Assembly (NCBI GenBank): GCA_934045905.1
Contig: OW203768.1
Coordinates: 20,846,770-20,910,769, forward strand
DNA: 64,000 nucleotides
Direction of reading: 5' to 3'
Origin: Leuctra nigra
Taxonomy: Eukaryota; Arthropoda; Insecta; Plecoptera; Leuctridae
A program made the translations under genes and the position numbers. Positions 3,977-44,978 of the stretch are shown piece by piece; position 1 is the first letter of the stretch, and the number at the start of each line of letters is the position of its first letter. The notes under the pieces were generated by a model. The model was not told the origin of the DNA, searched no databases, and saw only the letters and a program-made list of their open reading frames with translations.

Positions 3977-4155
3977 TCACCGCGTCCCCACGGCCGGCAG
4001 CTTGAGCGCCAGGAGCTGTCGATGGAGGCGTTGACGGACGAACTCGTAGAACTCGATCTCGCGCGTGAAGTTCCGTCTGACGATGTCCTTCACCGCCTCG
4101 CTGACGGGGGGCTTGTAGAGGTTGCGGTTGATGCGCGCGAACCGATCGACCTCTT
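3977..4155 (-). CDS. pip: Pipe-like 2-O-sulfotransferase, terminal coding exon
   Basis: This exon encodes the last 58 residues plus the codon shared with the previous exon. The acceptor is tcgtcttgcag followed by AAGAGGTC, and the stop is TGA at 3979-3977. The G left over from the previous exon plus AA makes a Glu codon, so the phase fits exactly. The translation contains NFTR, an N-glycosylation sequon, and EIEFYEFVRQRLHRQL. The latter corresponds to the conserved C-terminal EFYEF helix of heparan sulfate 2-O-sulfotransferase and its relatives. The exon is GC-rich compared with its surroundings, as are all coding exons here. The protein ends soon after this helix (ALKLPAVGTR), which is a short tail for the family. 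The assignment to the family is firm; the choice between pipe and another uronyl/heparan 2-O-sulfotransferase paralogue is inference. Confidence 0.9.
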
Positions 4156-4752
4156 CTGCAAGACGAGGACAACGATCAGGGGGATGCCGTCGAGAGTGCG
4201 AGAGAGTAAGAGAAACTAGAGAGATTATTGCTGACTGTTTAGAGACCATCCAAAATAGGTAATCTACGTTAATAGTCCTTTTCAGATACATTATCAACAA
4301 AATAATGCCAATTTACCACGCCGGTTTCTAGCCAATTAACAAGTGCTCTAAATGTCATTTAAAATTGAAATTGATTTCAATTTCTCAAACAAATTTTAAT
4401 TTTGAGGACCAATTTTGTGCATAAATGGAGTCCATATGAACCCAAATGATGTGATTTTTTGAGTAGACACCAATGTATAAACCTCTGAATAAATATTTTC
4501 CTTTCTTCTAAAAAATTTCTAATCCCGTTTCGGCCCGAAATTCGGGCCGAAACATGATTAAAAACAGTTTTAGAATAGGGCCCCTGGAAATACTCTCTAT
4601 CTCGTAACGGTACTATGTATTATTTTGCTGAAATAAACTTTGTTTTCCCTTCATTTGCGGCCCAAACTCGATGCCATCTGAAACCACGACAATACCTGCA
4701 CCCTCTTCTCTCCTTCACTTCTAATATGGTGCGACTACAACTAAGAACATAC
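4156..4752 (-). other. Intron between the last two exons, with MITE remnant
   Basis: This is a 597-bp intron with donor GTATGT (at 4752) and acceptor CTTGCAG (at 4156). It contains a perfect short palindrome, tttcggcccgaaattc with its mirror, at about 4528-4555. It also contains ttttagaatagggccc at about 4568, which matches the right end of the MITE at 33972-34104. It is therefore a probable decayed copy of that element. No gene is seen in it. Confidence 0.6.
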
Positions 4753-4907
4753 CTCTATACACTTGCCCCGCTCCTGCGAAGAATCTCGGCACGTAATGCT
4801 CCATCACTGTCAAAGTGGAGTTCAGATCCTCCAGCACGCCGACGACGGCGTAGTGACGCTCAACGGCGTCCTTGGCGCGCTGCATGGCGCCGACCGTGTT
4901 GAACGGT
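4753..4907 (-). CDS. pip: Pipe-like 2-O-sulfotransferase, penultimate exon (intact copy)
   Basis: This 155-bp exon runs from acceptor gctctcattccag to donor GTATGT. AC from the previous exon plus A forms Thr, and 51 codons and a trailing G follow. Residues FNTVGAMQRAK, then AVVGVLEDL, then VPRFFAGAGQVYR match the family's C-terminal sulfotransferase core. Human heparan sulfate 2-O-sulfotransferase has the same order, with a GVTEEL-type strand followed by a LPRFF-type helix. NSTL is an N-glycosylation sequon. Upstream of it lie four truncated copies of the same acceptor and exon start (5047, 5187, 5327, 5467). Only this copy has the full 3' half and a donor site, so it must be the productive exon. 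Confidence 0.92.
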
Positions 4908-5467
4908 CTGGAATGAGAGCAACACATCGTCACATGATGTCCGTCACTGTCAGGGTGGAGTTGAGATCCTCCAGCACTCCGACGACGGCGTAGTGACGCT
5001 CAACGGCGTCCTTGGCGCGCTGCATGGCGCCGACCGTGTTGAACGGCCTGGAATGAGAGCAACACATCGTCACATGATGTCCGTCACTGTCAGAGTGGAG
5101 TTGAGATCCTCCAGCACGCCGACGACGGCGTAGTGACGCTCAACGGCGTCCTTGGCGCGCTGCATGGCGCCGACCGTGTTGAACGGCCTGGAATGAGAGC
5201 AACACATCGTCACATGATGTCCGTCACTGTCAGAGTGGAGTTGAGATCCTCCAGCACGCCGACGACGGCGTAGTGACGCTCAACGGCGTCCTTGGCGCGC
5301 TGCATGGCGCCGACCGTGTTGAACGGTCTGGAATGAGAGCAACACATCGTCACATGATGTCCGTCACTGTCAGAGCGGAGTTGAGATCCTCCAGCACGCC
5401 GACGACGGCGTAGTGACGCTCAACGGCGTCCTTGGCGCGCTGCATGGCGCCGACTGTGTTGAACGGT
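4908..5467 (-). repeat. Array of four truncated exon copies with acceptors (140-bp unit)
   Basis: The array consists of exact 140-bp periods upstream of the intact 4753-4907 exon. Each unit holds the first part of the exon (through NSTLTV) and then diverges to GACGGACATCATGTGACG. It ends in the acceptor gctctcattccag, which joins the next unit. Exon-start copies begin at 5047, 5187, 5327 and 5467. All lack the PRFF segment and any clear donor. Read in frame, each runs STLTVTDIM and then a TGA stop. The outermost copy (5467) has a different acceptor, atttcaatttatag, presumably the original intron end. The copies differ at only a few bases, so the expansion or homogenisation is recent. Confidence 0.9.
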
Positions 5468-6575
5468 CTATAAATTGAAATGAATAAATTTACATAACGC
5501 TGCACTTGGGGAAAGAACATCAAATGTCATTAACAGCATTCTTCGAAAAAAATAACCTGTTGTAATAATTTTTTTTTAGTAATCTCACAAGTCATCAAGA
5601 ATCAATTTGGGATTTTTTATACATCAAAATCTACAATTGTTTTAAATGTAGCTTTCAACACACATGCTTCTCGGTTTAGTTAATTTGACGTACACTGTCA
5701 GTGACTCAAATCTTGATGAAAGCTGATGAAAATATCAACAGATTGAAAATGTTGAAAATATTTGTGTGATTTTGCTGTTCACCGATGTGTGAGTTCTCAG
5801 GCTTGTCAGACGGCTTTGTTTGTTCCCTCACCTCAAATGCACTTCTTTGACAGTTGACACGTTTTACTTAAGTTCATTCTTCAGAAGTAGGTAAAAATCA
5901 CGTAAAATCAACAATAGAGTTGGTAATACGTAGACTTTCTAATTTATCTCGGATACACTTTTTAAAAAATATACAATTTATTTATTAATGTATGACAGCC
6001 GCACTTGTGGGTTCCCATGTAGGTTTACAATTCATAACCAAATGTAATAAATCTGTCAAAGTACCTACTATTAAATGTAGTGTTACTTTTACCGCACGTG
6101 GCGGCTTCAAATACATTAGTAATAAATTTATCACTTTTTTGTCAGTCTGCATCGAACCAAACAAAATGAATAGTTTTGAGTTTTGACTAATACAACATCA
6201 TCTAACACACTCTTAATACCATGGTTTTAAACATAAAAATGTACTAAAAGACGCCGACAATACGTAAATTAGATATTTCCATTCATACCGTGAAAACCAA
6301 GTCAAGAACTAAATCCTTGCTTTATTCATAATCATCTTCAGATCGTTGCATTCAGTAATAACAATAATTTGACTAATGTCACTCTTCTCGTTTACAGACT
6401 TCTTAGAAACATTTCTTTGAGTGAAACTTGTACGACATCAATGATTGTAATTATAGTAAAGCGGCTAGATCTAAAGACGTACTCTCTTTGCGTCAAGTAA
6501 TACCCGTGATCAGTTGCACTAACAATGTCGTAAGTGTTGGAGAGTGTTTAGTGACGTGAAGTTGTGAACACTCAC
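5468..6575 (-). other. Intron upstream of the 140-bp array, nothing recognised
   Basis: This is AT-rich intron sequence from donor GTGAGT (6575) to the outermost acceptor of the array (5468). I see no MITE ends, SINE boxes or coding similarity. A short frame at 5992-6186 on the plus strand has no recognisable features. Confidence 0.5.
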
Positions 6576-6700
6576 GTGCATTCGTCGCCATGGCCGCAGA
6601 AGAAGAGACTCTGACGCCGGTGGTCTCCTATCCCCTCGTGCGTCTCTCCCTCGATGTAGCGGCACTCCCGGTTTCCCTCCAGGACGCAGGTCTCGAAGTC
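6576..6700 (-). CDS. pip: Pipe-like 2-O-sulfotransferase, cysteine-pair exon
   Basis: This 125-bp exon has acceptor cttcttatccag followed by GACTTCGAG, and donor GAATGCAC followed by GTGAGT. It encodes 41 residues starting DFETCVLEGNREC and ending FFCGHGDEC. The two cysteine pairs are spaced C-x7-C and C-x5-C. These are the spacings of the two disulfide-forming pairs of human heparan sulfate 2-O-sulfotransferase (TFDEC...DC and FFCGH..EC). The join from the previous exon gives LKM-DFETC, and the join to the next gives GDEC-TPFN, both in phase. There is no array around this exon, in contrast to the exons on either side. A plus-strand frame over the same bases (6590-6811) is a shadow. Confidence 0.92.
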
Positions 6701-7045
6701 CTGGATAAGAAGGCGGAATTGTTATCTCAAAACTACAGATTGATGCTTTTAGGAGGAGAACACGACAAAATACTTTCGACACAAATGAGGGGGTTTGTTT
6801 TAAAATTTTAAAAATAAATGTGATTTTCGTGTAGGGCACGTTGATTAATTGGTGCAAAATATATTATTATTGTGTATAGTTTTACAAAATCCTCTAGGCA
6901 CGTGAAGTAAAATTAAGTTTTTATTTTATTAGCAATACATCCAAATTAGAAATACAGCTCCACACTTGAATCACTCACTCAATATTGGTCATATCTTGCC
7001 TCAACGTAGCACACTTTTTTAAGAAAAATACTCCACTCCTATTAT

Positions 7046-7253
7046 CTGTACCTCAGAGGTAGTAGGGCGGAAGTCCATTTGAATGATTCTTGAGGTGATC
7101 TCATAACCCATTAATTCTGCCTTCATCAAATCATATTTGTAATGGTGACATGAGTCATTATGTGTAAGAGAATACTTTAATTTGATGACATCAATCGAAT
7201 GACAATTGATATAGCTTGATTACATCGGACTTCCAGCATTCTACCTCTGTACC
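7046..7253. mobile_element. Palindromic MITE (CTGTACCTCAGAGGTAG family), copy 1
   Basis: The left end ctgtacctcagaggtag is mirrored by ctacctctgtacc at the right end. The subterminal ggaagtccatttgaatgatt is mirrored by a ggacttcc-type segment. Other copies lie at 22352, 42605, 44278, 46566 and 58492. No coding capacity is seen. Its right end sits only about 17 bases from the donor site of the 7271-7427 exon, so it inserted almost on a splice site without destroying it. Confidence 0.75.
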
Positions 7254-7270
7254 AATGAAACCCCACTGAC

Positions 7271-7427
7271 CATCTTGAGCCACCTGGGATCCGGCAGCGG
7301 GATGTCTGGGAAGGCCTGCTTCCTCTCGACGTAATACCAGGGCGCTCTGACGTAGTAGTACCAGGAGATGACACGCTCCACGGGGTCTCGAACCAGGTTC
7401 ACGTAGATGGGCTCCGGCATGTGGTAT
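7271..7427 (-). CDS. pip: Pipe-like 2-O-sulfotransferase, 3'-phosphate-binding exon (intact copy)
   Basis: This 157-bp exon has acceptor catgttgcag followed by ATACCACATG, and donor AAGATG followed by GTCAGT. GA from the previous exon plus A gives Glu, and 52 codons follow. The core is IYVNLVRDPVERVISWYYY, which matches the family motif that binds the 3'-phosphate of PAPS. The Arg of VRDP and the Ser eight residues later (VIS) hold the positions of the binding Arg and Ser in human heparan sulfate 2-O-sulfotransferase. The exon ends PLPDPRWLKM. Upstream are 13 truncated copies of the acceptor and the first 70 or so bases. Only this copy continues past SWY into YYVRAPWYYV and reaches a donor. 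Confidence 0.93.
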
Positions 7428-8636
7428 CTGCAACATGCACATAGTGTCAGTACCAGGAGATGACTCGCTCCGGGTCTCGAACCAGGTTCACGTAGATGGG
7501 CTCCGGCATGTGGTATCTGCAACATGCACATAGTGTCAGTACCAGGAGATGACTCGCTCCACGGGGTCTCGCACCAGGTTCACGTAGATGGGCTCCGGCA
7601 TGTGGTATCTGCAACATGCACATAGTGTCAGTACCAGGAGATGACTCGCTCCACGGGGTCTCGCACCAGGTTCACGTAGATGGGCTCCGGCATGTGGTAT
7701 CTGCAACATGCACATAGTGTCAGTACCAGGAGATGACTCGCTCCACGGGGTCTCGCACCAGGTTCACGTAGATGGGCTCCGGCATGTGGTATCTGCAACA
7801 TGCACATAGTGTCAGTACCAGGAGATGACTCGCTCCACGGGGTCTCGCACCAGGTTCACGTAGATGGGCTCCGGCATGTGGTATCTGCAACATGCACATA
7901 GTGTCAGTACCAGGAGATGACTCGCTCCACGGGGTCTCGCACCAGGTTCACGTAGATGGGCTCCGGCATGTGGTATCTGCAACATGCATCGTGTCAGTAC
8001 CAGGAGATGACTCGCTCCACGGGGTCTCGCACCAGGTTCACGTAGATGGGCTCCGGCATGAGGTATCTGCAACATGCACATAGTGTCAGTACCAGGAGAT
8101 GACTCGCTCCACGGGGTCTCGCACCAGGTTCACGTAGATGGGCTCCGGCATGTGGTATCTGCAACATGCACATAGTGTCAGTACCAGGAGATGACTCGCT
8201 CCACGGGGTCTCGCACCAGGTTCACGTAGATGGGCTCCGGCATGTGGTATCTGCAACATGCACATAGTGTCAGTACCAGGAGATGACTCGCTCCACGGGG
8301 TCTCGCACCAGGTTCACGTAGATGGGCTCCGGCATGTGGTATCTGCAACATGCACATAGTGTCAGTACCAGGAGATGACTCGCTCCACGGGGTCTCGCAC
8401 CAGGTTCACGTAGATGGGCTCCGGCATGTGGTATCTGCAACATGCATCGTGTCAGTACCAGGAGATGACTCGCTCCACGGGGTCTCGCACCAGGTTCACG
8501 TAGATGGGCTCCGGCATGTGGTATCTGCAACATGCATCGTGTCAGTACCAGGAGATGACTCGCTCCACGGGGTCTCGCACCAGGTTCACGTAGATGGGCT
8601 CCGGCATGTGGTATCTGCAACATGCACATCGTGTCA
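7428..8636 (-). repeat. Array of 13 truncated exon copies with acceptors (about 92-bp unit)
   Basis: Acceptor boundaries recur at 7516, 7608, 7700, 7792, 7884, 7976, 8066, 8158, 8250, 8342, 8434, 8524 and 8614, upstream of the intact acceptor at 7427. Spacing is 92 bp, with 89- and 90-bp variants. Each unit is the last 22 or so bases of the intron (ctgacactatgtgcatgttgcag-like) plus the first 70 or so bases of the exon. The outermost copy runs into unique intron sequence with the same ctgacac segment, so the unit is a simple tandem duplication across the intron-exon boundary. At every junction the frame reads VISWY and then a TGA stop. Copies differ at very few bases. Confidence 0.93.
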
Positions 8637-8790
8637 GTGGGGCAACAGATTCTCAGAGACATCACGTTGGATTGGAACTGCAGCCAGTCAAGCAGGATTC
8701 ACAAGAACAGAGTCGCTCAGCGGTGCGTCGTGTTGTTTTCAAAGAGCGGAATGAAGTAATTGCGTAATGAAGACGAGTGACTGTTATCAA

Positions 8791-8810
8791 GGGGGGGGGG
8801 GGGGGGGGGG
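8791..8810 (+). repeat. G20 homopolymer
   Basis: Twenty consecutive G on the plus strand lie within the intron of the pipe-like gene, so there are twenty C in the transcript. The length is likely to vary, and sequencing error is possible. Confidence 0.8.
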
Positions 8811-9252
8811 CACACAATTCAGCCTACAATTCAAATTATACAGTTTCAATGAAAACAAATTATCAACTGCCAATTTAATTTCAGGGATTTCTTCAAAAAA
8901 TAATTATATTTGATAGGTATTTAAATTTTTCGATTCCAAGTTGAAGTTTTGTCAAATGATTCCAGGTACATTTTCACATATCTATCAGACATGGGCAAAA
9001 TACTCTGTTTCAATGTATTTGGAATACAAGATACTGATACTTTCAATTTGGGTATCTAAAATACAAGATACAAGATACATTTTAGAGATGTATTTAAAAT
9101 ACAAGATACAAGATAGTATCTTTAGATACTTCAAAAAAGATACATTTAAAGATCCTTTTTTTTATTCTCATACATATCATCCAACAGTAAAAAATTAAGG
9201 GACTTACTTTCTTAATTAAATTTTAATTTGTTCTATTTGTAAGGCAACATAC

Positions 9253-10555
9253 TTAAGACGGCTGGGTAGTGAGTTTGACCTTGAAGAGTTTTTTAATCGA
9301 TTTTTATCAATATCTTTTTCCAGTGTAATTGAGCGAGCGTAGCGAGCGTCACCACGGTACTCTTATGGCACTTTCTCTGTGTGTTTTTTTTTGTTTTTTT
9401 TTGTCTGCACTGCCGAGGTCAAACCGCACAACCAATCGATCTGAAATTTTGCACACGTACTAACGTGATCTATGCGGTCTCTGGGATCGTTTTTGAAAGG
9501 GATCTTGTGATTGGTTCAAATTTAAAAAAAATTATCTTTCGATTGGGAATTTGAAAATTTCCCGTTCAATTTGAAATTTTGATAAGTCATTACGACCAAC
9601 ATTTTGCCCAATCAAACAAAATTTCATCCAATTAAAATTAAAAAAATTATTTAATGTGTTTTTTGAAATTTAAACTAGAACCGTATCACCGATCAACTTA
9701 AAACGTTGCATGGTCATTGGGACCAACATAATCTGTATTTTTTAATACTTTCAGACTATTCTGTGTTTAAATCCAAAAGTAATTGACATTTTACGGACAT
9801 TTTGCGTGTTGGCTGTCAAATTTCTCGAAAATGTTGATCACGGCTACTTTGACTCTTCAGTTCTAATCCAAGGTAGTTGAGCAAAACTTTTAAACGCATA
9901 TGAAACTAATAATTACCGTTCAACAGATCGATCTGATATTGTGTACACACACTAATATCGTATGAGTGGTCCCAGGTATATTTTTTGAAAGAGATTCTGT
10001 GATTTTTGAATATTTACTGGGAACGTAGTTCAATTATAAAGGTTCAATCGATCAACTTAAAACTTTACATGGTTATTGGGACTAATATTTGAGTGATATT
10101 TGGAGATTTTTAAACAAGTCTGTGAAAAATTCAAGAAATTGGCTTTTAATGATATTTTTGATAGACGCAGAATTTCGGTTCGAGGTGTTACGCGTATCCG
10201 TGCTCGCTCATCAACGCGTTTCACAGAGCGTTTTCCTAGTTGTTAACAAAATAGGGCTATGGACGTGAATTCAGAACAGTTCAATGAAAATAATTTCATA
10301 GTTTGGAATAAGCTATTAGTTTTATTGTGTCCAACAGGTGTTTAGAACCCGAAAATTACTAAATTTTCGGGTTTTAAACACCTGTTGGACAAAATACAAC
10401 TAATAACTTATTCCAAACTATGAAATTATTTTCATTGAACTGTTCTGAATTCACGTCCATAGCCCTATTTTGTTAACAATTACACTGGAAAAAGATATTG
10501 ATAAAAATCGATTAAGAAACTCGTTAATGCCACGCTCACTACCAAGCCCTCTTAA
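9253..10555. mobile_element. TTAA-flanked foldback element, copy A, interrupted
   Basis: Both ends are flanked by TTAA (9253-9256 and 10552-10555). The left arm gacggctgggtagtgagttt is mirrored by the right arm ending ctcactaccaagccctc. Copies B and C (19274, 28817) are complete 392-bp palindromes including TTAA. Copy A has the same arms but is split after cagtgtaattg by about 910 bp of other sequence. TTAA flanks suggest a piggyBac-type target preference, but no transposase is present, so this is inference. Confidence 0.8.
9332..10241. other. Unclassified repeat-like insert inside foldback copy A
   Basis: The segment starts agcgagcgtagcgagcgtc and includes a ccgtgctcgctcat stretch near its other end. 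It contains two diverged internal blocks of the type caatcgatctgaaattttgc and a second motif, gatcaacttaaaac, also repeated at a distance of several hundred bases. No coding frame of note is present. It appears to be an additional transposon or an internal part of a longer version of the foldback family. Confidence 0.45.
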
Positions 10556-11215
10556 CATTTTCTTGATCGATTCAATACGGCAACGTGTATTATTTGATGC
10601 TTGTTTGAACTCAAGCAAGAGATCAAGCTATCTTTGAAATTCTAGGCGCATAAAAATGTATCTTGTATTTTAAATCTTCAAAAAAGATACAAAATACTTT
10701 AGAAATGGGTATTTAAAATACAAGATACAGATACATTTGGCTCATGTATTTAAAATACTAGATACAAGATACAAATGTATCTAAGATACGTATCTTAAGA
10801 TACAAGTATCTAGATACTGCCCATGTCTGATATCTATCGATACAAATATAGACTCAATACCTATTAAAAAATATGTAAATGCTCCGATCAAGTTGAAATG
10901 CAATAAGGACTTGAGCTTTTTCCAGGGGTTGGAGAAACGTGTTCTCAAATACATTGATCATTGATTCTATGCGTTAGCAATATGCAAAAAATTGGTGTGA
11001 TCTTGATGGTGATATTTTCGTACAAACTATGTTTAAAGTAATTCGTTGCATTTTAAATCGCTATTATTTTTAAATTTGGCGCTTTACATGTTTTGAAAAA
11101 TAGAAAGTAACTTAATCAATGTCATGTGAATCATTCTTTACAATCAAAATCGGCTCAATCAACTCTCACAGATCATATTCGCATCCAATACAAAAGCTCG
11201 CTTATTCTTTCTTAC

Positions 11216-12095
11216 TCTGTGAAGTTGGTGAAGCACACATGCTTGATGTACACAGCTGGAGGCTCGAAGCTGTTGACGTGCTCCGCCAGTCCTATCTGGT
11301 CTGGAGGAGCCAGCCGGATGACCTTCTGGATGTACTTACTCTGTGAAGTTGGTGAAGCACACATGCTTGATGTACACTGCTGGAGGCTCGAAGCTGTTGA
11401 CGTGCTCCGCCAGTCCTATCTGGTCTGGAGGAGCCAGCCGGATGACCTTCTGGATGTACTTACTCTGTGAAGTTGGTGAAGCACACATGCTTGATGTACA
11501 CTGCTGGAGGCTTGAAGCTGTTGACGTGCTCCGCCAGTCCTATCTGGTCTGGAGGAGCCAGCCGGATGACCTTCTGGATGTACTTACTCTGTGAAGTTGG
11601 TGAAGCACACATGCTTGATGTACACTGCTGGAGGCTCGAAGCTGTTGACGTGCTCCGCCAGTCCTATCTGGTCTGGAGGAGCCAGCCGGATGACCTTCTG
11701 GATGTACTTACTCTGTGAAGTTGGTGAAGCACACATGCTTGATGTACACTGCTGGAGGCTCGAAGCTGTTGACGTGCTCCGCCAGTCCTATCTGGTCTGG
11801 AGGAGCCAGCCGGATGACCTTCTGGATGTACTTACTCTGTGAAGTTGGTGAAGCACACATGCTTGATGTACACTGCTGGAGGCTCGAAGCTGTTGACGTG
11901 CTCCGCCAGTCCTATCTGGTCTGGAGGTGCCAGCCGGATGGTCTCCACCTTCTGGATGTACTTACTCTGTGAAGTTGGTGAAGCACACATGCTTGATGTA
12001 CACAGCTGGAGGCTCGAAGCTGTTGGTGTGCTCCGCCAGTCCTATCTGGTCTGCAGGAGCCAGCCGGATGGTCTCCACCTTCTGGATGTACTTAC
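11216..12095 (-). repeat. Array of seven truncated exon copies with donors (124/130-bp unit)
   Basis: Exon-end copies terminate at 11966, 11836, 11712, 11588, 11464, 11340 and 11216, downstream of the intact donor at 12096. The first two steps are 130 bp and the rest 124 bp. The 124-bp type lacks six bases inside the VETIR segment. Each unit is the 3' part of the exon (from ACATCCAGAAGG) plus the donor gtaagt. The outermost donor (11216) reads gtaagaaagaataag, probably the original intron start, while internal ones read gtaagtacatccag. If a later donor is used, translation stops at TAA right after FTNFTE. The plus-strand 83-residue frames over this region are shadows of the repeat. Confidence 0.92.
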
Positions 12096-12373
12096 TCTGT
12101 GAAGTTGGTGAAGCACACATGCTTGATGTACACAGCTGGAGGCTCGAAGCTGTTGACGTGCTCCGCCAGTCCTATCTGGTCTGGAGGAGCCAGCCGGATG
12201 GTCTCCACCTTCTGGATGTGGTCGCGATGGAAGCCGAACTGGTTGCGGATGGAGAGGCGACGCAAAAGCTCCATGAACGTCTGACTGCCGACCTTGGGCA
12301 CGCGGTTGAAGAAGACGATCTGGACCCCGGCTTTGGCGGTGTTGTTTAGGTTCTGAGCGTCCAGAGAGTCCAT
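12096..12373 (-). CDS. pip: Pipe-like 2-O-sulfotransferase, PAPS-binding exon (intact copy)
   Basis: This 278-bp exon has acceptor cgatgtttccag followed by ATGGAC, and donor ACAGA followed by GTAAGT. It holds 92 codons plus two bases. The key segment is VFFNRVPKVGSQTF, about 20 residues in. The Lys of RVPK lies in the 5'-phosphosulfate loop that contacts PAPS in this family. Near the end, YIKHVCFTNFTE lines up with the GHVSF segment of heparan sulfate 2-O-sulfotransferase, so its His is the likely catalytic base. NNT and NFT are glycosylation sequons. The RVPKVGSQT form points to pipe, which sulfates glycans or glycoproteins in the fly secretory pathway. The initial ATG is an internal Met codon, because the phase joins cleanly to the exon at 14133-14191. 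Confidence 0.93.
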
Positions 12374-14132: not shown

Positions 14133-14191
14133 CTCGCCACTCTCCGTCAGCATGCGCACCATCGCGTTCATGGCGGCGTCCCCGCTGTGAC
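14133..14191 (-). CDS. pip: Pipe-like 2-O-sulfotransferase, small stem exon
   Basis: This 59-bp exon has acceptor cttgtgcgcag followed by GTCACAGC, and donor GGCGAG followed by GTAAGAC. G from the upstream exon plus GT makes Gly, and 19 codons follow (HSGDAAMNAMVRMLTESGE). The exon ends in phase 0 and joins MDSLDAQ in the next one. The sequence is not conserved enough to recognise by itself. The evidence is the pair of consensus splice sites, the exact phase at both ends and the GC-rich composition. Its place in the protein is the lumenal stem between the membrane anchor and the catalytic domain. Confidence 0.82.
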
Positions 14192-19273: not shown

Positions 19274-19665
19274 TTAAGAGGGCTTGGTAGTGAGCGTGGC
19301 CTTGACGAGTTTTTTAATCGATTTTTATCAATATCTTTTTCCAGTGTAATTGTTAACAAAATAGGGCTATGGACGTGAATTCAGAACAGTTCAATGAAAA
19401 TAATTTCATAGTTTGGAATAAGCTATTAGTTTTATTGTGTCCAAGAGGTGTTTAGAACCCGAAAATTACTAAATTTTCGGGTTCTAAACACCTGTAGGAC
19501 AAAGTAAATCAAATAAACCATTCCAAGCTATGGAATTATTTTCATTTAACTGTTCTGAATTCACGTCTATAGCCCTATTTTGTTAACAATTACACTGGAA
19601 AAAGATATTGATAAAAATCGATTTAAAAACTCTTCAAAGTCAAACTCACTACCAAGCCGTCTTAA
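19274..19665. mobile_element. TTAA-flanked foldback element, copy B (palindrome)
   Basis: TTAA occurs at 19274-19277 and 19662-19665. The interior is a nearly complete palindrome of about 384 bp whose centre is aacccgaaaattac against attttcgggtt. The left arm has the gagcgtggccttgacgag variant and the right arm the mirror of gagtttgactttgaagag. This is the opposite arrangement to copies A and C. Confidence 0.88.
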
Positions 19666-35684: not shown

Positions 35685-37141
35685 TAGGGATGGAGAAAAT
35701 ATCGATATATCGATATATATCGATATCAAAAAAATATTGAAATATCGATACCCGAATATATTGAATATCGATATATTATTATTATTATTATTATTTATTT
35801 TAAAACACATATATAACACATATACACAGGATACATATTATTATACATGCGTTTACTGGCAGTGGGAATAGAGCAAAGCCCCGTAACAACATGTGCCCCA
35901 CTGCCAGCTTGAGCAAAAAGTCACAGATACATTAAAAACACATTAAAAAGACAACCATAAAGATAAATTAAATATATACTTATCAAGAATAAATAACAAA
36001 ATCGTGCGTGAGCACTCGTCGATAAAAACTATTGTTGACTATTTAAAATTCGCAGCCGTAAATTTAGTTTAAAATCATTAATGTTAGTGCAGTCTTGTCG
36101 TAAACTAGATGGTAGACTATTGTATGAAGCAACAACTCTGGTGTAAAAAGCATGCAAATATAGATCCGTACGTGCAAATGGAGGAATCAATCTTCCAACA
36201 TAATTATGTCTTGATCTAGAGACATTGTTAATTGTAACACGCACATAAGGATCAAGGTCCACAAGGAATAAAAGCATTTTTTTAAAGAAGATTAAATCAA
36301 TTTCATTCACTAAATTCTCAATAGAGAGTAGTGAACACAAACGCAACCTCTCTCCCGAGGACACATCCCTTCTCTTAGTAAAGGATGTATTGAAATATCG
36401 ATATATCGAAATATTGAAATATCGATATATTGAAATATCGAAATATTGAAATATCGAAATATCGAAATATTGAAATATCGAAATATCGAAATATTGAAAT
36501 ATCGATATATTGAAATATTGAAATATCGATATATTGAAATATTGAAATATCGATATATTGAAATATCGATATATCGAAGCTTTACCGTATGATACAACTA
36601 TATTCTTAATTGAAGTTTATACCTACTATGGCAAAATAATTCATATTTGCAGTGCAGCGTTTATCACATTTTAGGACAATTTCTCAGATTATTCAAATTT
36701 CTTTCTTATCTGGCCGGTGACCCTATATTTTGCAACGGCTCTGTTATTTCTATTTAAATTTTCTTTTGAATTTCCTATCAGTTTTAGGAGCAATTTAAGG
36801 CATTTATGCGATATATCAATATTTCCATACCTACATCGAAATATAATATTGTCATATATCAATATTTCGATATTTCAATATTTCGATATTTCGATATTTC
36901 GATATTTCGATATTTCGATATTTCAATATATCGATATTTCGATATTTCAATATATCGATATTTCGATATTTCAATATTTCAATATATCGATATTTCAATA
37001 TATCGATACTTCAATATATCGATATTTCGATAATTCAATATTTCAATATATCGATATATTGCGATATCGATATATCGATATATATCGATATATAAATGAT
37101 ATCGATAGTCGATATCAAAATCCAGGTTCGCTCCATCCCTA
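35685..37141. mobile_element. hAT-type element with ATCGATATTTCG repeat arms and retroelement cargo
   Basis: TAGGGATGGAG at 35685 is mirrored by CTCCATCCCTA ending at 37141. Both are flanked by a perfect 8-bp duplication, GTTAGAAG (35677-35684 and 37142-37149). The ends and the inner flanks are long runs of atcgatatat and gatatttc units (35699-35775, 36390-36580, 36805-37115). Between them, at about 35776-36380, sits the 3' tail of a non-LTR retrotransposon in minus orientation. The total is 1457 bp. Confidence 0.87.
36029..36364 (-). pseudogene. 3' tail of a non-LTR retrotransposon reverse transcriptase ORF
   Basis: This 111-residue minus-strand frame contains DLDPYVRVTINNVSRSRHNY, then RLIPPFARTDLYLHAFYTRV and YNSLPSSLRQ, and ends NDFKLNLR. 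This order (a basic R-rich stretch, an aromatic F..R segment, WNSLP-like, then F K..L) is the usual extreme C-terminus of reverse transcriptase polyproteins of non-LTR retrotransposons. It stops at 36029. The downstream part (35800-36028) would be the 3' untranslated tail, ending in an AAT-type simple repeat near 35776-35800. It is 5'-truncated, with no polymerase motifs, and so not functional. Confidence 0.7.
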
Positions 37142-37779: not shown

Positions 37780-40700
37780 CAATTTGTTCATTCCAGAGCA
37801 GTCTTGCACTGAAATCCATCGGGCAGTGGAATCTTGCATTTGTCTCATTCCAGAGCAGTCTTGCACTGGCATCCATCGGGCGCTAGAATCTTGCATTTGT
37901 CTCATTCCAGAGCAGTCTTGCACTGGCATCCATCGGGCGCTGGAATCTTGCATTTGTCTCATTCCAGAGCAGTCTTGCACTGGAATCCATCGGGCGGTGG
38001 AATCTTGCATTTGTCTCATTCCAGAGCAGTCTTGCACTGGCATCCATCGGGCGGTGGAATCTTGCATTTGTCTCATTCCAGAGCAGTCTTGCACTTGCAT
38101 CCATCGGGCGGTGGAATCTTGCATTTGTCTCTTTCCAGAGCAGTCTTGCACTAGCATCCATCGGGCAGTGATATCTTGCATTTGTCTCATTCCAGAGCAG
38201 TCTTGCACTGGCATCCATCGGGCAGTGGAATCTTGCATTTGTCTCATTCCAGAGCAGTCTTGCACTGGAATCCATCGGGCGTTGGAATCTTGCATTTGTC
38301 TCATTCCAGAGCAGTCTTGCACAGGCATCCATCGGGCAGTGGAATCTTGCATTTGTCTCATTCCAGAGCAGTCTTGCACTGGCATCCATCGGGCAGTGGA
38401 ATCTTGCATTTATCTCATTCCAGAGCAGTCTTGCACTGGCATCCATCGGGCAGTGGAATCTTGCATTTGTCTCATTCCAGAGCAGTCTTGCACAGACATC
38501 CATCGGGCAGTGGAATCTTGCATTTGTCTCATTCCAGAGCAGTCTTGCACTGGAATCCATCGGGCAGTGGAATCTTGCATTTGTCTCATTCCAGAGCAGT
38601 CTTGCACAGGCATCCATCGGCAGTGGAATCTTGCATTTGTCTCATTCCAGAGCAGTCTTGCACTGGCATCCATCGGGCAGTGGAATCTTGCATTTGTCTC
38701 ATTCCAGAGCAGTCTTGCACTGGCATCCATCGGGCAGTGGAATTTTGCCTTTGTCTCATTCCAGAGCAGTCTTGCACTGGCATCCATCGGCAGTGGAATC
38801 TTGCATTTGTCTCATTCCAGAGCAGTCTTGCACAGGCATCCATCGGGCAGTGGAATCTTGCATTTGTCTCATTCCAGAGCAGTCTTGCACTGGCATCCAT
38901 CGGGCAGTGGAATCTTGCATTTGTCTCATTCCAGAGCAGTGTTGCACTGGCATCCATCGGGCAGTGGAATCTTGCATTTGTCTCATTCCAGAGCAGTCTT
39001 GCACTGGCATCCATCGGGCAGTGGAATCTTGCACTTGTCTCATTCCAGAGCAGTCTTGCACTGGAATCCATCGGGCAGTGGAATCTTGCATTTGTCTCAT
39101 TCCAGAGCAGTCTTGCACTGGAATCCATCGGGCAGTGGAATCTTGCATTTGTCTCATTCCAGAGCAGTCTTGCACTGGCATCCATCGGGCGGTGGAATCT
39201 TGCATTTGTCTCATTCCAGAGCAGTCTTGCACTGGAATCCATCGGGCAGTGGAATCTTGCATTTGTCTCATTCCAGAGCAGTCTTGCACTGGCATCCATC
39301 GGGCGGTGGAATCTTGCATTTGTCTCATTCCAGAGCAGTCTTGCACTGGAATCCATCGGGCAGTGGAATCTTGCATTTGTCTCATTCCAGAGCATTCTTG
39401 CACTGGCATCCATCGGGCAGTGGAATCTTGCATTTGTCTCGCGTTCATTCCAGAGCAGTCTTGCACTGGAATCCATCGGGCAGTGGAATCTTGCATTTGT
39501 CTCATTCCAGAGCTGTCTTGCACTGGAATCCATCGGGCAGTGGAATCTTGCATTTGTCTCATTCCAGAGCAGTCTTGCACTGGCATCCATCGGGCGGTGG
39601 AATCTTGCATTTGTCTCATTCCAGAGCTGTCTTGCACTGGAATCCATCGGGCAGTGGAATCTTGCATTTAACTCGCGTCCATTCTAGAGCAGTCTTGCAC
39701 TGGAATCCATCGGGCAGTGGAATCTTGCATTTGTCTCATTCCAGAGCAGTCTTGCACTGGCATCCATCGGGCAGTGGAATCTTGCATTTGTCTCATTCCA
39801 GAGCTGTCTTGCACTGGAATCCATCGGGCAGTGGAATCTTGCATTTGTCTCATTCCAGAGCTGTCTTGCACTGGCATCCATCGGTCGGTGGAATCTTGCA
39901 TTTGTCTCATTCCAGAGCTGTCTTGCACTGGAATCCATCGGGCAGTGGAATCTTGTATTTGTCTCGCGTTCATTCCAGAGCAGTCTTGCACTGGAATCCA
40001 TCGGGCAGTGGAATCTTGCATTTGTCTCATTCCAGAGCTGTCTTGCACTGGCATCCATCGGGCGGTGGAATCTTGCATTTGTCTCATTCCAGAGCAGTCT
40101 TGCACTGGCATCCATCGGGCGGTGGAATCTTGCATTTGTCTCATTCCAGAGCTGTCTTGCACTGGAATCCATCGGGCAGTGGAATCTTGCATTTGTCTCG
40201 CGTCCATTCTAGAGCAGTCTTGCACTGGAATCCATCGGGCGTTGGAATCTTGCATTTGTCTCATTCCAGAGCTGTCTTGCACTGGCATCCATCGGGCGGT
40301 GGAATCTTGCATTTGTCTCATTCCAGAGCAGTCTTGCACTGGCATCCATCGGGCAGTGGAATCTTGCATTTGTCTCGCGTTCATTCCAGAACAGTCTTGC
40401 ACTGGAATCCATCGGGCAGTGGAATCTTGCATTTGTCTCATTCCAGAGCTGTCTTGCACTGGCATCCATCGGGCGGTGGAATCTTGCATTTGTCTCATTC
40501 CAGAGCAGTCTTGCACTGGCATCCATCGGGCGGTGGAATCTTGCATTTGTCTCATTCCAGAGCTGTCTTGCACTGGAATCCATCGGGCAGTGGAATCTTG
40601 CATTTGTCTCGCGTCCATTCCAGAGCAGTCTTGCACTGGAATCCATCGGGCAGTGGAATCTTGCATTTGTCTCATTCCAGAGCAGTCTTGCTCTGGCATC

Positions 40701-41527
40701 CATCGGGCAGTGGAATCTTGCATTTGTCTCATACCAGAGCAGTCTTGCACTGGAATCCATCGGGCAGTGGAATCTTGCACTTGTCTCATTCCAGAGCAGT
40801 CTTGCACTGGCATCCATCGGGCAGTGGAATCTTGCATTTGTCTCATTCCAGAGCAGTCTTGCACTGGCATCCATCGGGCAGTGGAATCTTGCATTTGTCT
40901 CATTCCAGAGCAGTCTTGCACTGGCATCCATCGGGCAGTGGAATCTTGCATTTGTCTCATTCCAGAGCAGTCTTGCACTGGCATCCATCGGGCAGTGGAA
41001 TCTTGCATTTGTCTCATTCCAGAGCTGTCTTGCACTGGCATCCATCGGGCGGTGGAATCTTGCATTTGTCTCATTCCAGAGCAGTCTTGCACTGGCATCC
41101 ATCGGGCGGTGGAATCTTGCATTTGTCTCATTCCAGAGCAGTCTTGCACAGGCATCCATCGGGCGGTGGAATCTTGCATTTGTCTCATTCCAGAGCAGTC
41201 TTGCACTGGCATCCATCGGGCAGTGGAATCTTGCATTTGTCTCATTCCAGAGCAGTCTTGCACTGGCATCCATCGGGCGGTGGAATCTTGCATTTGTCTC
41301 ATTCCAGAGCAGTCTTGCACTGGCATCCATCGGGCGGTGGAATCTTGCATTTGTCTCATTCCAGAGCAGTCTTGCACTGGAATCCATCGGGCAGTGGAAT
41401 CTTGCATTTGTCTCATTCCAGAGCAGTCTTGCACTGGAATCCATCGGGCGGTGGAATCTTGCATTTGTCTCATTCCAGAGCAGTCTGGCACTGGCATCCA
41501 TCGGCAGTGGAATCTTGCATTTGTCTC
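37780..41527. repeat. 57-bp minisatellite, about 65 tandem copies
   Basis: A 57-bp unit is repeated head to tail over 3.75 kb. On the plus strand it includes ttgcatttgtctcattccag, agcagtcttgcactggcatc and catcgggcagtggaatc. Variants include 63-bp units with CGCGTT or CGCGTC inserted, 56-bp units lacking one G, gcagtc/gctgtc, ggcatcc/ggaatcc and cagtgg/cggtgg. Because 57 is a multiple of three and the unit lacks stops in five frames, very long open frames arise on both strands (up to 1252 codons). The 56-bp units shift the frame, so no single frame is preserved. It lies inside the long intron. Confidence 0.95.
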
Positions 41528-44838: not shown

Positions 44839-44978
44839 CTGAGAGCTGGTTGGAGGAGATGAGCTCGTCGCTCTGTCTTCTGTCCTGCATCTCTCGCAGC
44901 TTCGTGTGCAGATCTCGCGTGTGGATGAAGAGGAAGAGGGTCGTGGAGATGGCCATCAGAGCCACCAGCTCGCTGTAT
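44839..44978 (-). CDS. pip: Pipe-like 2-O-sulfotransferase, membrane-anchor exon
   Basis: This 140-bp exon has acceptor gttgctccag followed by ATACAGCG, and donor CTCTCAG followed by GTAAGAC. It encodes YSELVALMAISTTLFLFIHT, a single hydrophobic segment near the N-terminus. A charged stem with coiled-coil character follows (LHTKLREMQDRRQSDELISS). This is the layout of a type II Golgi glycosyl/sulfotransferase: a short cytosolic tail, a signal anchor and a lumenal stem. The final G joins GT of the next exon to make Gly. The exon begins one base into the third position of a codon, so at least one upstream exon must supply the start. Confidence 0.87.

Follow-up and report, generated by a model that had tools for sequence, protein, structure and literature searches.

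We analysed a 64,000-nucleotide stretch of the stonefly Leuctra nigra genome (assembly GCA_934045905.1, contig OW203768.1, positions 20,846,770 to 20,910,769; hereafter the window, with coordinates counted from its first base). The window is insect DNA of 37% guanine plus cytosine (GC) content and encodes on its minus strand pipe, a heparan sulfate 2-O-sulfotransferase gene in which three exons carry tandem arrays of copies of their own splice junctions. Exons E2 (the N-terminal part, 44839..44978), E3 (14133..14191) and E6 (6576..6700), all without an array, and E8 (the last coding exon with the stop codon, 3977..4155) were placed by reading frame and by tblastn comparison with insect pipe proteins. 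The other three located exons, likewise on the minus strand, are the intact copies of E4 (12096..12373, donor at 12095), E5 (7271..7427, acceptor at 7427) and E7 (4753..4907; of its acceptors, only that at 4907 directly adjoins the complete exon). Joined at the last acceptors and the first donor, the seven exons yield an intact open pipe frame of 363 residues, which matches Pfam Sulfotransfer_2 (61.7 bits against a cut-off of 22) and, in the PDB, the structure of heparan sulfate 2-O-sulfotransferase (HS2ST). The closest relative among the matches listed is Anabrus simplex pipe (81% identity, 681 bits), and the majority of the named proteins among these 120 matches are called pipe. A tblastn search with insect pipe proteins did not locate a first coding exon upstream of 44978, and pipe therefore probably comprises eight exons or more.

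The E7 array (4908..5469, minus strand) holds four extra acceptor junctions with a period of 140, each followed by a TGA 115 nt past its acceptor; the first exonic bases of the five acceptors in all are 5467, 5327, 5187, 5047 and 4907. At E5 (7428..8638, minus strand), 13 extra copies with a period of 89–92, each with a TGA 67–70 nt past its acceptor, bring the total to 14 acceptors, whose first exonic bases run from 8614 to 7427. The E4 array (11211..12095, minus strand) multiplies the donor instead: seven extra donors with a period of 130 or 124, read-through of which gives GAG-TAA, make eight in all (first intronic bases 12095, 11965, 11835, 11711, 11587, 11463, 11339 and 11215). The intact exon adjoins one end of each array only, at the last acceptor in E5 and E7 and at the first donor in E4. 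Choice of an extra site would extend E5 (157 nt) to at most 1344 nt, E7 (155 nt) to at most 715 nt and E4 (278 nt) to at most 1158 nt. Acceptor copies were identified by an AG at the regular spacing, hence none lacks it, and donor copies by GTAAG; two of the four extra E7 copies read AG/GCC instead of AG/ACC (the slash marks the junction), and the join of the E5 array has, by eye, a 3-base ACT overlap. Tandem Repeats Finder (TRF) delimited the arrays at 4800–5469, 7357–8638 and 11211–12200, with matches of 97–98% and scores of 1277, 2445 and 1816, which rule out chance as their origin. The first-pass annotation had described three separate arrays in two orientations, in three of seven exons of a sulfotransferase gene, with copies reading into VISWY-stop, TVTDIM-stop and NFTE-stop. 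All of this is borne out, the fraction of exons being true of the seven located.

Two other explanations of the units were tried and rejected. Coding repeats are ruled out by the stop that closes every copy, and tandem alternative exons by a weight-matrix scan of one E5 and one E7 unit, in which no donor-like site was strong enough to serve as partner (at best 6.9 and 4.8, respectively). In the single E4 unit scanned, an acceptor-like site reaches 8.1, more than the acceptor of E5 itself. When the 36-base tail of the E7 unit was aligned with the continuation of the exon, of which it might be a diverged copy, the anchored alignment was equalled by 2 of 2000 shuffles and the free local one by 229 of 2000; the tail has no 12-base word in common with the rest of the window.

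Closure by an in-frame stop extends to every junction array we found. Including five arrays in other genes described below, 52 of 52 extra copies in eight arrays are closed: 45/45 acceptor copies in seven arrays and 7/7 donor copies. All 17 extra acceptor copies of pipe E5 and E7 meet the stop inside their own unit, and for 40 of the 45 acceptor copies it lies inside the unit concerned or at the seam of that unit; in the array of a PAS-domain kinase gene, 5 of 14 extra copies stay open until a later copy supplies the stop. In five of the seven acceptor arrays, examined in one copy each, the stop belongs to a TRAC, which we take to be a branch-point-like motif, 18–22 nt before the next acceptor (one third would be expected; P = 0.045 by arithmetic). 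The TGA closing the E5 copies, for example, sits within TGAC. Upstream of each of the five ordinary pipe acceptors, at a distance of 18–27 nt, lies a TRAC or TRAT. Of the remaining arrays, the one in a CDK16-like gene forms its stop at the acceptor itself (AG/TGAC), that in a second sulfotransferase gene owes its stop to a missing base, and the E4 donor array uses the TAA of the donor (GA/GTAAG). The stops require no design, because in six of the eight arrays they lie within a branch-point-like motif or a donor: a unit carries its own splice signal, and the stop therefore comes along in one frame of three. Random duplications, drawn from pipe alone, were closed at a rate of 0.53 (one extra copy) to 0.72 (three) at acceptors and, under other settings, of 0.66 over acceptors and donors.

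We then considered where in the window such arrays lie. Long-unit arrays, defined by units above 40 bp, at least four copies and the exclusion of 8-bp AT repeats, number four: those at E4, E5 and E7, and a fourth with a 57-bp unit. Three of the four span one of the 13 pipe junctions, which has P = 2e-5 under uniform placement and P = 0.018 under GC-matched placement. GC-rich exons in an AT-rich genome thus account for most of the array placement, since the exons have 57–68% GC in a window of 37%. The intronic share of the eight units, read by eye, averages 0.27 (uniform P = 0.01), a bias toward the exon side, and seven of the eight arrays are at acceptors (P = 0.07). The 57-bp unit recurs about 65 times at 37782–41527 in the large pipe intron, and this array is open in several frames, including one of 1252 residues on the plus strand; its units contain CTCATTCCAG, which also occurs in the E7 units on the opposite strand.

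Sequence differences among the pipe copies fall into two groups. All six exonic variants common to several copies are synonymous (P = 3e-4), and those found in single copies comprise three synonymous and five non-synonymous changes, the neutral synonymous share being 0.26. The simplest reading would be that the intact exon was under constraint when the fixed differences arose in it and that the copies drift, as constraint of this kind would make shared variants synonymous and leave single-copy variants near the neutral share. In E4, one base is common to the intact, first extra and last extra copies and absent from the five in between; in E5, it is the intact copy and the one next to it that depart from the remaining copies.

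To place pipe in a wider context, we searched the whole assembly from which the window comes (536,196,549 bases; the window lies on contig 7). Used as a query, the E5 junction matched only the 14 sites of the pipe array among the best candidates scored. We also sampled 87 loci around kinase matches, out of 132 listed (the 30 best, 40 more and 17 others, shorter matches first), largely leaving out rows that resembled one repeated family with the same open-frame length in many places; 17 of the 87 had short flanks, and none of these 17 has an array. Across these loci (261 kb), TRF reported 12 arrays with units of at least 25 bp, of which four are acceptor arrays. Three lie on the target exon and, named by the best match of the intact exon, belong to an SNF1/AMPK-family kinase (L066; 144-bp unit, 4 acceptors), cGMP-dependent kinase 1 (L070; 145 bp, 4 acceptors) and the PAS-domain kinase (L073; 51 bp, 15 acceptors). 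The fourth lies on a neighbouring exon, in the CDK16-like kinase identified in the same way (L049; 77 bp, 5 acceptors), and is not counted in the 3/87 target loci used below. The second sulfotransferase gene (L097/L098, C2:23379848-23380378) has a more diverged array with a unit of about 106 bp and 5 acceptors. In this last array, most copies lack, by eye, one base of the intact exon. By reading, indels in the copies of L070 and L097 shift the frame. The stretches examined in two phosphatase genes, which are outside the Fisher test given below, have no array. Beside one kinase match (L020:1203-1490), a 135-bp unit present 2.1 times appears by eye to lie at the 3' coding end, with the stop of the first copy at the seam. 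The array-forming process is not specific to pipe, because four kinase genes and the second sulfotransferase gene have arrays built in the same way. The first-pass annotation had suggested a locus-specific process, a view that the kinase, sulfotransferase and phosphatase loci sampled do not support. Neutral expansion, which it had named as the simpler alternative, emerges as the better-supported reading.

Among pipe proteins of other insects, two predicted models show related repeats. In the Timema genevievae model (P0049), residues ~198–260 comprise copies of the E7 start in tandem, with frame-shifted ones flanked on either side by one in frame. It ranked top of 137 pipe proteins with a score of 9.47, against 7.06 for the next and 7.61 for the best of 100 shuffles; by unweighted run length its lead is less clear (11 vs 10). 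The same model has a repeated IEANKLVMCYPEDI stretch between E7 and E8. In Cydia pomonella, pipe isoform X3 (P0135) contains seven copies of a 51-residue unit that includes the E2 segment, the last of them without the SKCYS tail, as if an intron end and an exon start had been repeated in frame; of this repeat region, the remaining 36 matches account for 29% at most. Both cases come from predicted proteins and are uninformative on how often arrays are closed, because stop-bearing arrays cannot show in protein models.

Elsewhere in the window, two copies of a palindrome-like element were recognised by eye at 10230–10500 and 19330–19640 (AATAGGGCTATGGACGTGAATTCAGAACAG and its inverted copy), perhaps similar to a miniature inverted-repeat transposable element (MITE). 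TRF placed AT-rich arrays with 8-bp steps of TATCGAAATAT type, in both orientations, at 36384–37115. Inspection by eye of the 45 longest of 228 open frames, with no database search of the frames made, revealed no other clear gene.

We interpret the pipe arrays as tolerated minisatellites of a type that is probably genome-wide and was previously described in amphioxus as 'mirages', whose copies are predicted to be removed as intron while the junction of the intact exon is used; from the sequence, we would give this reading a probability of roughly 0.78. Units of ~90–140 bp, each made up of a GC-rich exon edge and a short stretch of intron, follow one another in tandem and provide 5, 14 and 8 junction copies, and an acceptor unit, with its AG and in five of seven arrays a TRAC 18–22 nt before it, resembles a whole splice site. 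Small tandem duplications within GC-rich exons may be the origin of such arrays, with slippage or unequal exchange adding further copies. Where only exon sequence is duplicated, the protein would be broken and the duplication lost, whereas a duplication that includes the junction would be tolerated, because a normal message can still be made from the last acceptor or the first donor. Any other choice of site meets a stop, and the resulting messages would be degraded. The recurrence of the same build in five other genes suggests that the process operates genome-wide, and any change in pipe level caused by the arrays may be a small cost.

Several observations weigh against so neutral an interpretation. 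The association with pipe junctions keeps its P of 0.018 once GC is matched, and a local bias toward pipe may partly remain. The 5' edge of the E7 array falls exactly at the acceptor, with a different intron (TTTATAG) before the 5'-most copy, an edge that plain tandem duplication does not predict. Both exonic indels of the pipe copies, of 3 and 6 bases, are in frame, a hint of constraint, although copies of L070 and L097 have frame-shifting ones. If the two rates for random duplications, 0.53 and 0.72, are raised to the seventh power, closure of seven out of seven acceptor arrays has a probability between 0.01 and 0.10, and complete closure hints at selection on closure. Finally, arrays are denser in pipe, at three of its seven exons, than in the kinase sample, where they occur at 3 of 87 target loci (Fisher P = 0.005) or, counting short-exon loci only, at 3 of 57 (P = 0.014), a comparison to be read with caution as pipe was selected because of its arrays.

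The closure counts also speak for the proposal of the first-pass annotation that the arrays could act as a splice-competition dial. Decoy sites would bind U1, U2AF and U2 snRNP and slow or misdirect splicing, the stops would send the products to decay, and copy number would set the level of pipe. By the splice-site weight matrix used above, the lowest of the seven acceptor scores belongs to E5, the exon with the most copies among the pipe arrays, and of the six donors that of E4 shares the lowest score. It is physically plausible that output would be affected, because duplicated 3' splice sites can be occupied together and this concurrent occupancy inhibits splicing in vitro (PMC5389562). Two amphioxus papers nevertheless report mirages without splicing disturbance (PMC3087553, PMC3902484). 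Arrays of the same build also occur in the four kinase genes and the second sulfotransferase gene, and a stop that lies within a branch-point-like motif or donor in six of eight arrays needs no regulatory purpose. We know of no function common to those five genes. Such a dial is therefore an unlikely explanation of the arrays. We hold equally improbable a genome-wide version, in which arrays would persist mainly where the splice signal of the unit (TRAC branch point or GTAAG donor) is at the same time the in-frame stop, so that each decoy kills itself and copy number sets the loss of message.

The Fisher comparison and the Timema and Cydia models, with their frame-shifted E7-start copies and seven E2-segment copies, could alternatively mark pipe as a special hotspot at which junction arrays recur across insects. 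The window was, on the other hand, chosen for its arrays, and 13 to 98 genes this dense, depending on the rate chosen, would be expected per 10,000 seven-exon genes; the Cydia repeat region is poorly covered by the other 36 matches, and the insect comparison, made on protein models, covered the pipe family only. We regard this as more doubtful still than a dial. That the copies are on their way to new exons or introns, a model stated for amphioxus globins in PMC3087553, would be in keeping with E4, where each unit has a donor and the unit scanned an acceptor-like site as well. All acceptor copies end in stops and none looks usable in its present form, which makes this very unlikely. Least probable of all, to the point of being hardly credible, is an artefact of assembly. 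Arrays are a known weak spot of assemblers, but these are 0.7 to 1.3 kb long, the copies hold their own variants and indels, and the published L. nigra assembly rests on 32-fold HiFi reads (PMC10280035).

Rows of up to 15 acceptors in insect genes are natural counterparts of the constructs with duplicated splice sites by which site choice of the spliceosome is studied. They also bear on the origin of new introns and exons and are sites at which gene predictors may err, and the overlap of stop and branch-point-like motif provides a simple countable prediction for the whole genome.

What is new here is the presence of junction arrays in an insect pipe gene and five further genes; amphioxus mirages were known already, and a search of the open-licence literature found junction arrays in amphioxus only and none in insects. 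According to PMC3087553, amphioxus mirages are tandem units at both exon boundaries, for which reverse transcription PCR (RT-PCR) suggested regular splicing; PMC3902484 describes imperfect mirages in PGBD5 and cites Adh and TnC as further cases. The stonefly arrays share with these examples (globins BflGb6 and BflGb9, Adh3, TnC and PGBD5) tandem boundary-spanning units at acceptors or donors, of 51–145 bp compared with 10–160 bp in amphioxus, and in both systems edge copies escape homogenisation and the intact exon adjoins the array. Minisatellite-like units, a span across the boundary, AG or GT signals inside the units and differing edge units, four of the features by which mirages are recognised, are present in the stonefly, and the arrays are likely of the same kind. 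Copy numbers that differ between haplotypes are a further mark of mirages; the analysis covered one stonefly haplotype, to which an alternate is published. They differ in their insect host, in having up to 15 acceptors in a row, and in the occurrence of three arrays in one gene, with five more elsewhere in a small sample. That a stop closes every copy, as counted in the stonefly, is not mentioned in the passages considered on amphioxus. Splicing was tested for amphioxus mirages, whereas the analysis of the stonefly arrays covered DNA sequence.

Two further systems offer partial parallels; a paper on C. elegans minisatellites concerns intron motifs and has no bearing on junction copies (PMC4039745). 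Under the Rogers model of intron gain by tandem genomic duplication, as in potato RdRp (PMC4974935), the duplicated stretch also holds splice signals; there the outcome is an additional intron, whereas the stonefly arrays multiply a boundary that already exists, with no sign of a new intron. The beta-globin constructs (PMC5389562) likewise repeat a 3' splice site within a single pre-mRNA, but they are laboratory products with two sites, compared with 4 to 15 natural copies in the stonefly. Their duplicate sites were spliced very inefficiently in vitro and at the distal site only, which fits the predicted use of the last acceptor in the stonefly arrays, where some loss of efficiency would likewise be expected.

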